Positions 1,640-4,184 of a DNA stretch of 34,231 nucleotides are shown piece by piece. Numbering within the stretch: position 1 is the first letter of the stretch; each line of letters begins with the position of its first letter. Location: positions 1 to 34,231 of the IMG/VR virus record IMGVR_UViG_3300030102_004767; one strand, written 5' to 3'. The notes under the pieces were generated by a model that did not search any database, was not told where the DNA came from, and saw nothing but the letters and a program-made list of their open reading frames with translations. The position numbers were made by a program, and so were the translations under genes. The DNA is from a virus.

Positions 1640-1837
1640 CCATAGAGAGTAGATTGACGGATAGGCTTCACCCCCTTGCGGGTACTGTATCACTTAGGCT
1701 TTACGCCTAACCCCTCGACCATACAGTTCACGCCAGTCGCCAGAACTTACGGAGTTGCACCGCCACCCGAAGGTGGGTCTGGTAGGTCTTTCCTTCCACG
1801 CGGGCAACCTTTACCCCTTGCTATCGTGTGGAGTACG
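1640..1837 (-). ncRNA. Candidate structured RNA (unknown class)
   Basis: This gap between two leftward genes is about 56% GC over 1661-1830 by hand count, in an AT-rich genome. On the minus strand it folds into several consistent helices: 1685-1690 with 1721-1726 (CTGTAT/ATACAG) enclosing 1694-1699 with 1705-1710 (TTAGGC/GCCTAA); a GCAA-capped hairpin at 1673-1682; a UUCG-capped hairpin at about 1764-1776; a CCAGA/TCTGG helix closing a branched junction around 1740-1783; and CCACaCG/CGcGUGG around 1796-1831. The GNRA and UUCG loops exist only on the minus strand, which is also the transcribed strand. It does not match tRNA, tmRNA or RNase P signatures I know. It may be a cis leader or a processed small RNA. 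Edges are approximate. Confidence 0.5.
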
Positions 1838-2875: not shown

Positions 2876-3439
2876 ATGACAGTCCCAGAAAAAGTTAAAA
2901 TCAACGTTAGAGTACACGAACAGTTAATGGCCGTTCGGGAAGAAGTTCTAGTTAATTCAAAGGAAATGTCCGGTGAAAATAAATATCAAGGTTTTAAATA
3001 CTATCAATTAGTAGATTTTATGCCTGCTTTGATACAAAGCCTTAGAAAAAACGGATTATCTTATGTTGAAAATTTTAGCCCTACAGAGGCTTCGTTAACA
3101 GTTATCGACAAACAAAGCGGCAGTTATGTTACAACTACTTGCCCTATTGATTATTCTCATTTAAAAGGTTCTTCCCCGATGCAATCGATAGGCGCTTCCA
3201 TGACTTATGCGAGGCGTTATTTGTGGGTCAGTTTATTAGGGTTAGTAGAATATGACCCTAAGAACGGCGGCGATGTTGACCTTGACCAACTTGATCAAAG
3301 CAAGTCAGCTATTGACCCACAAGCTAAAACACCTCAATACGTTCAAAAACATGGACAGACTCCTAACAATGTTATGGAAAAACTACAAGCAATAAGAACA
3401 CAAAACCTTGAAAAACGGGGGAACAATAATGATTCATGA
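2876..3439 (+). CDS. erf: ERF-family single-strand DNA annealing protein
   Basis: The protein is 187 aa. It matches the ERF superfamily of phage single-strand annealing proteins, which pair complementary strands during recombination and genome circularisation. The family core is present: YQGFKYYQLVDFMPAL at about residues 37-52, and the characteristic MQSIGASMTYARRYLW at about 102-117. The C-terminal 55 residues are low-complexity and polar, as is common in this family. The ATG is preceded by GAGGAG. Its 3' end overlaps the YqaJ exonuclease gene by 11 bases, forming the classic annealase-exonuclease pair. Confidence 0.9.
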   Translation: MTVPEKVKINVRVHEQLMAVREEVLVNSKEMSGENKYQGFKYYQLVDFMPALIQSLRKNGLSYVENFSPTEASLTVIDKQSGSYVTTTCPIDYSHLKGSSPMQSIGASMTYARRYLWVSLLGLVEYDPKNGGDVDLDQLDQSKSAIDPQAKTPQYVQKHGQTPNNVMEKLQAIRTQNLEKRGNNNDS

Positions 3440-4184
3440 AAACGAAATATGCGTGAGTCAGCGTTCTTTTGATTGGTGGTATAGAAGGTTGGGTCGTATA
3501 ACCGCAAGTGATGTGGGCGTTTTGTTTGCTGAACCTAGGGCGAAAGTAGATAAAGATAAACTAACAAAAACCCAACAGTCTTATGTAATTTCTAAGGCTT
3601 CGGAGCGGGTTCAATTACAAGAATTATCTTTAACGGAATTACAAAGGATTTATGGCGACCAAATTGATTTAGCTGACAAAAACGCTGACATAGCGCGGGG
3701 GGTTAAATTAGAACCCGAAGCAATGTTAAGGTTTGCTGATGCTTTGTTAGATCACTTTCCACAAGTCGGCAAAACCTTATACGTTGATAAATGCGGGTTG
3801 TTTGTCCATAAGGCTATGTCGTTTTTTGGTGCAAGTCCAGATGGCATAGTCTATGACTCCGACACAAAAAAAATTGAGTCTGTTGTAGAAATTAAATGCC
3901 CTCGCGTTGCAGGTCATTATGAGGTGATATCAACCAAGGAAGTTAAGACTGCTTATTACTATCAGATGCTTGCACAATCTTTTATTGTTGGGACAAAAAC
4001 TTGTGAGTTTGTCAGCTATTGTGAGGAAGTGCCTTTTGACCATCAACTTGTTGTACTGACTCATAAATTTGATAATTCAGAACGAGAGGCTTTAATTGAA
4101 AAAGTTGATCGGTTCAACACTTTGATTGAAATTGAAAAAGAAAAACTTATGAAAACAGATACTTGGGTGCAGTTTAATGAATAA
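3429..4184 (+). CDS. YqaJ-family (lambda exonuclease-like) recombination nuclease
   Basis: The protein is 251 aa. It belongs to the YqaJ viral recombinase family of PD-(D/E)XK exonucleases, which resect double-stranded ends to feed an annealing protein. Visible motifs are RITASDVG (23-30), GASPDG with D138, VVEIKCP with E154 and K156 (the D...ExK active site), and the YYYQMLAQ helix with Q179. The ATG at 3429 was chosen over an upstream in-frame TTG because it has GGGGG about eight bases upstream. The partner ERF gene overlaps its start. Length is normal for the family. Confidence 0.9.
   Translation: MIHENEICVSQRSFDWWYRRLGRITASDVGVLFAEPRAKVDKDKLTKTQQSYVISKASERVQLQELSLTELQRIYGDQIDLADKNADIARGVKLEPEAMLRFADALLDHFPQVGKTLYVDKCGLFVHKAMSFFGASPDGIVYDSDTKKIESVVEIKCPRVAGHYEVISTKEVKTAYYYQMLAQSFIVGTKTCEFVSYCEEVPFDHQLVVLTHKFDNSEREALIEKVDRFNTLIEIEKEKLMKTDTWVQFNE

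Follow-up and report, generated by a model that had tools for sequence, protein, structure and literature searches.

A 223-nt element on the minus strand of a 34,231-nt viral DNA stretch (IMG/VR record IMGVR_UViG_3300030102_004767, positions 1 to 34,231; the whole stretch is called the window) was compared with its relatives in other phages, and the comparison securely points to a real class of structured RNA that is, as far as checked, undescribed. The element, ACGTACTCC...GGGTGAAA, lies at 1616-1838 and is of the form that we call type A, as determined by a model match and by the shared ends of near-identical elements. The element's last ~13 nt recur as direct repeats in two internal segments, g1 and g2, and across many alleles a change in one copy goes with a change in the other. 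We infer that the RNA may pair with its own 3' DNA via g1 and g2. Our best guess is that the resulting R-loop would help start replication, and a cis-acting leader or antiterminator is the main rival explanation. Members are common among phage contigs from metagenomes, but Rfam 15 has no such family and the catalogued phages that were searched have no copy.

An earlier note on this DNA had described the gap at 1640-1837 as a GC-rich candidate new structured phage RNA. Its estimate of about 56% GC agrees with the measured 55.6% for 1640-1837, vs 39.5% across the window. The nested stems CTGTAT/ATACAG and TTAGGC/GCCTAA that it listed are present and correspond to helices P9 and P8, and its GCAA and UUCG loops (P10 and P5a) both lie on the minus strand, which it had rightly chosen as the transcribed strand and which also carries the flanking genes. 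The proposed interval was too short, missing the 3' end and with it the second copies of both repeats. The folding-energy z-score was unremarkable for 1640-1837 (-0.16 plus, -0.32 minus; -2.2 for 1588-1860 minus), so that the evidence for an RNA had to come from relatives; single-sequence folding energy is uninformative here and comparative evidence is decisive.

The relatives were collected by using the 101-aa protein encoded just upstream of the element as bait, which yielded 80 loci. Four of these carried a gap-like stretch downstream of their copy of the 101-aa gene, and viral contigs were probed at the DNA level with two conserved stretches from those four loci. Probe GGTGCAAMTCCGYAAGWWYC matched 62 stretches, and probe TACTCCRCACGATAGYAAG matched at least 119, of which a few were discarded as matches in an unrelated phage group; with a third probe, placed on the element's 3' end, at least 119 stretches matched. 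The exact 18-mer GTACTGTATCACTTAGGC was also tried as a probe and returned only unrelated contigs, with an apparently coding match. In bacterial genomes, the 5' probe matched only two metagenome-assembled genomes, one betaproteobacterial and one of Burkholderiales. The element was not found by blastn of three representatives against 50,697 catalogued phage records, by blastn of one representative against plasmids, or by running the covariance model over six whole named phage records in which the 101-aa protein has relatives. A single copy per record was detected in 32/32 matched whole records with the 5' probe and in 27/28 whole records with the covariance model; two of the model-matched records gave the match in two pieces, the element being split by an insert. 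Judged by eye from shared motifs, L113 3147-3316 appears, of all the elements collected, to be the one most closely related to that of the window.

Mutual information, calculated over the 87 sequences gathered under type A (effective number 67), recovered P1, P2, the loop-2 pseudoknot, P4, P5a, P5b, P7, P8, P9, and P10 as complementary column pairs. In a separate alignment of 58 other phage sequences, from which the window was excluded, 87.8% of cells paired and 33 of the 41 pairs were changed on both sides; the structure was drawn from one row of this alignment and is somewhat favoured by that. The covariation score was 0.441, compared with 0.055-0.097 for slid partners and 0.146 for shuffles (0/500 shuffles reached it), and since kinship inflates covariation counts, the slid control is the better guide. 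A covariance model built with the window left out (R1) found the window at minus 1838-1671 with 95 bits and a rough E-value, from a short calibration, of 4.6e-24. The window element was assigned to type A by this model match and by the repetition of g1 and g2 past the G-rich 3' hairpin. Its extent was set by element pairs that are ~89-96% identical in different flanks, in which the shared sequence commonly runs from CCGTAC to 11-15 nt past the G run, with a 5' boundary sharp to about +/-1 nt; these shared ends in unrelated flanks place the window element at 1616-1838.

The fold shown by these alignments consists of a 5' module (P1, P2, and the loop-2 pseudoknot), a three-way junction bearing a T-loop, a P7xP9 pseudoknot around P8, P10, and a G-rich 3' hairpin, with two pseudoknots among the helices. 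P1 (UCCAC/GUGGA, 1795-1832) closes the 5' module common to types A, B, and others; 5/5 of its pairs change on both sides, and pairs 14-49, 15-48, and 16-47 covary. Within it, the covarying P2 hairpin (1801-1817) presents the loop AGGUU as one side of pseudoknot PK1, the second strand of which is GACCU at 1784-1788, as read from covariation (columns 38-58 and 39-57) and the window letters; many relatives have AACC/GGGU here. The P4 junction (CCAGA/UCUGG, 1740-1782), supported by covariation and the model match, holds P5a, read from the window letters as CCACC-UUCG-GGUGG (1763-1776), and P5b (CGG-UGCAACU-CCG, 1750-1762), with a loop resembling a T-loop, pairs kept in 100% of cells, and one covarying pair. 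P7 (CGACU/GGUCG, 1715-1739; 99.3% of cells paired, both-side changes in 3/5 pairs) is pseudoknotted with P9 (ACUGUAU/AUACAGU, 1684-1727), of which columns 121-159 and 122-158 are among the strongest covariations. The P8 hairpin (UUAGGC/GCCUAA, 1694-1710) covaries, as do columns 163-175, 165-173, and 166-172 of the P10 hairpin (CCC-GCAA-GGG, 1672-1682). The 3' hairpin P11 (CUACUC/GGGGUAG followed by the G run, 1629-1652) comes from the type A alignment; it is strongly conserved and therefore offers little covariation to test, and its G-rich strand also served to collect type A sequences.

The stems are kept among homologues with compensatory changes, and Rfam 15 gave no match to the element or its relatives beyond chance; these are the two tests that the earlier note had named, and both support its candidate. 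At the gathering threshold no family was matched, the only hits being tRNA genes elsewhere in two loci, and at relaxed thresholds only chance-level matches were obtained. Within the open-access PubMed Central (PMC) literature, which was the scope of the search, no description was found. Several identities were tried and rejected. A cobalamin riboswitch or tRNA-like identity, considered from the T-loop GGUGCAAAUCC, was without Rfam support; hepatitis delta virus-like, group I, and hammerhead-like identities, compared by eye, misfit in topology or core nucleotides; and no Rfam intron model, group I or II, matched. An intron within a gene was also rejected: the type A loci are intergenic, and their joined flanks gave no consistent long reading frame.

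The matched repeats are seen in the window as GGCGT and GGGTGAA, each present twice. Segment g1 is the internal GGCGU at 1730-1734, after the P7 5' strand, and g2 is the internal GGGTGAA at 1667-1673, after P10; the 3' copies are g1' (GGCGT, 1626-1630) and g2' (GGGTGAAA, 1616-1623), the latter ending the element. The internal segments lie in predicted single-stranded joints ~60 nt apart, and the tail copies are nearly adjacent (g1'-TTT-g2'). Identity-type column pairs lie on two diagonals, at offset 106 for g1 (columns 114/220 and 115/221) and offset 50 for g2 (columns 176/226, 178/228, 180/230, and 181/231). The g2 repeat is seven to nine bases long, and matched alleles elsewhere include GGGCGAAAT, GGGCGATAA, CGAGGAACC, GGGAAGAG, GGGTGATGT, GCTGATCT, and GGTTGAAA. 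The longest substring common to a sequence's own tail and body averaged 7.31 nt, vs 5.89 +/- 0.09 when tails were swapped between sequences (7.6 vs 5.53 +/- 0.16 without the commonest allele), and reached at least 7 nt in 79/88; tail swapping ignores relatedness, so this effect size is not a probability, and more weight attaches to the variety of different alleles that match. The spacing between repeat copies varies by tens of nucleotides. The upstream flank had no comparable repeat signal, the flanks held no partner complementary to the repeats beyond chance, and nine whole phage records held no second matching or complementary site for the 16-nt tail beyond chance. Complementary covariation with the g1 and g2 columns inside the RNA gave no consistent helix, and a top-strand guide was not seen, the only diagonals between the RNA and the 3' site being of the identity type.

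Two copies of the same strand cannot pair with each other, and neither the RNA nor the phage genomes checked yielded a complement elsewhere, which leaves the opposite DNA strand at the tail as the partner within the phage. The fold would bring g1 and g2 together as one composite guide, split in sequence, and this guide would pair with the DNA strand opposite the element's 3' end, in the simplest case the template strand immediately behind RNA polymerase, to yield a sequence-specific R-loop. As a weaker step, the R-loop might prime or open a replication origin, along the lines of ColE1 RNA II. This step would fit the single copy per genome and the indifference to the downstream gene, and in a minority of cases the neighbouring gene does belong to replication (9/64 initiation or primosomal, 2/64 primase/helicase). 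Taken jointly, the structured class, a composite guide forming an R-loop with the element's own 3' DNA, and replication priming or opening make up a reading that we hold tentatively, as possible rather than probable. Its most explicit form, in which the RNA, alone or with a host protein, reads its own 3' DNA through a two-loop composite guide and starts phage replication by a programmed cis R-loop, is unlikely to be right in full. Several observations weigh against replication and pairing. Genes other than replication genes make up most of those downstream; the element was not at the extremes of cumulative GC skew in 10 records; g1 is only 2-5 nt; and the covariation counts are inflated by related sequences. 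A second form of the RNA, type B, is without the tail repeat, and its 3' end pairs instead with an internal loop.

If the replication reading is true, the element would represent a new mode of RNA-guided DNA recognition and a phage origin of a new type. Should the pairing be real, this would be a case of an RNA reading its own gene, possibly an RNA-made origin in double-stranded DNA phages, and even without pairing the class offers a well-defined covarying fold for structural work. ColE1 RNA II, likewise a folded non-coding RNA, is the precedent for a persistent hybrid (PMC5043065); for the present element a hybrid with its own template near the 3' end is only proposed. Unlike RNA II, the element is much shorter, has another fold, and belongs to double-stranded DNA phages that often have their own initiator, and its primer role is putative. 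Bridge RNAs came to light through this kind of signal, matched repeats shared by RNA loops and the RNA's own DNA end; in the present case no IS110-type recombinase was found in 26 records.

The leading rival is a cis-acting leader or antiterminator, a folded RNA that would contact RNA polymerase or the ribosome and control early transcription or translation downstream, in principle as HK022 put does. In the window, as in several lambda-like records, the element lies near a divergent early promoter region, ahead of an early operon; type A elements occupy intergenic positions, a gene on the same strand following at a median of 87 nt, and terminator-like T runs occur just upstream in many relatives. 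The early-operon location is shared, in the window and some relatives, with the HK022 put and lambda nut antitermination RNAs. Put and nut sites come in pairs, whereas this element is single in each genome, longer, and pseudoknotted; the genes downstream of relatives vary widely, and the matched repeats are left unexplained. We consider such a role, antitermination here being hypothetical, somewhat unlikely. The narrower proposal of the earlier note, cis control of the replication gene downstream, is unlikely because relatives lie upstream of many unrelated genes. A trans-acting non-coding RNA, for instance an anti-defence or host-directed one, would use the repeats to bind one partner RNA or protein, with the 3' copy as a decoy or autoregulatory site. 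The single copy, the elaborate fold, the alternative bodies on one 5' module, the tRNA-like inserts, and the occasional upstream tRNA genes are consistent with this, as is the lack of a partner inside the phage in nine whole records; it is doubtful, in that the many g2 alleles would need equally many partners and the element usually lies shortly before a gene.

The covariation logic is the same as in the IS110 bridge RNA study, where identity covariation was taken to mean bottom-strand pairing (PMC11208160), and the IS110/IS621 bridge RNA is likewise structured, of similar length, and has internal segments covarying by identity with DNA at the end of its own element (PMC11208160). A bridge-RNA-like guide of a DNA recombination or homing system, in which the 3' tail would be the end that is recognised and the enzyme would come from elsewhere, would also agree with the shared ends in unrelated flanks (about +/-1 nt at the 5' end, +11 to +15 at the 3' end). 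Unlike the bridge RNA, however, the element came with no IS110-type DEDD recombinase (PF01548; 0/26 records), no second (top-strand) guide, and no donor/target loop pair; there is one copy per phage without sign of insertion or excision, and a search for empty sites found none, the element being replaced rather than absent. This explanation is very unlikely. Direct repeats acting at the DNA level as iterons or operators for a phage protein, with the RNA fold a separate matter, are also highly improbable: the repeats of 7-9 nt and the replication initiator adjoining in some relatives would suit such sites, but the copy spacing varies, the internal copies lie in RNA joints, and g1 is very short.

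Two further systems resemble the element in part. GOLLD also occurs with tRNAs. The ornate RNAs GOLLD and ROOL are also folded orphan RNAs of phages and bacteria (PMC12286853), whereas the element is ~220 nt and matches neither in Rfam. The VIPR vrRNA is likewise phage-borne and reads DNA with split segments (PMC13142463); unlike it, the element is without a YNNGG repeat tract and has just two segments, both matching its own tail.

The 5' module, CCGTACTCCRCACGATAGYAAG...GCRYGGAAG, also heads other RNAs. Type B (28 sequences) keeps the same order of P1, P2, pseudoknot, P4, P7xP9 with P8, and P10, with its own covariation; its internal GGTGA pairs with the 3'-end TCACC. At least four further bodies were seen on the 5' module (L206, L191, L220, L241, and L214; L149 and L159; L192, L227, and L232; L160 and L215). 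Inserts in P5a of ~140 nt, with ends GATGATGGTG...CACCATCATC, were present in L183, L204, L156, L221, L267, and others; some contain tRNA-like D- and T-arm sequences, and ARAGORN calls none of them tRNA. Of the 204 collected elements, 8 have a tRNA gene no more than 1 kb upstream, vs roughly one expected from tRNA density (L165, L239, L264, L278, L345, L150, L059, and L123, some being near-duplicates).

The gap itself extends between two minus-strand genes, from the stop of the 101-aa gene (1838-2143) to the start of a gene for a replication initiation or primosomal-like protein (1108-1587; phrog_270, E 6e-11). The 101-aa gene has no Pfam or PHROG match and is conserved across many phage contigs; its protein has ~100 relatives in viral contigs, and others in Xanthomonas, Stenotrophomonas, and Methylophilales phages, several of them near antitermination-like genes. 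The closest relatives of the window (81% and 72% in this protein) have at the gap position a different folded-looking segment of ~180 nt ending in AATGGTCTTTTTGCGTCTT (L002 5303-5484; L003 3935-4130). Another conserved folded-looking segment occupies the gap position in L066 (~3270-3480) and L079 (~3880-4100); in L066 it contains GGCTGACGAGTC...CCGAAAG and at first looks hammerhead-like, but in L079 the core is not kept.

A second structured-looking element lies just upstream of type A in several phages (L072 4590-4740; L070 3925-4110; L075 5320-5480; L059 5870-6060). By eye, long arms that vary between phages close a terminator-like T-run hairpin round a folded insert, and some phages have a promoter-like site ahead of it. 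In L057 (5500-6500), a 15-nt inverted-repeat array, CCAACACGCATGGGG / CCCCAGCCGTGTTGG, surrounds different inserts and adjoins a tRNA-Leu gene.
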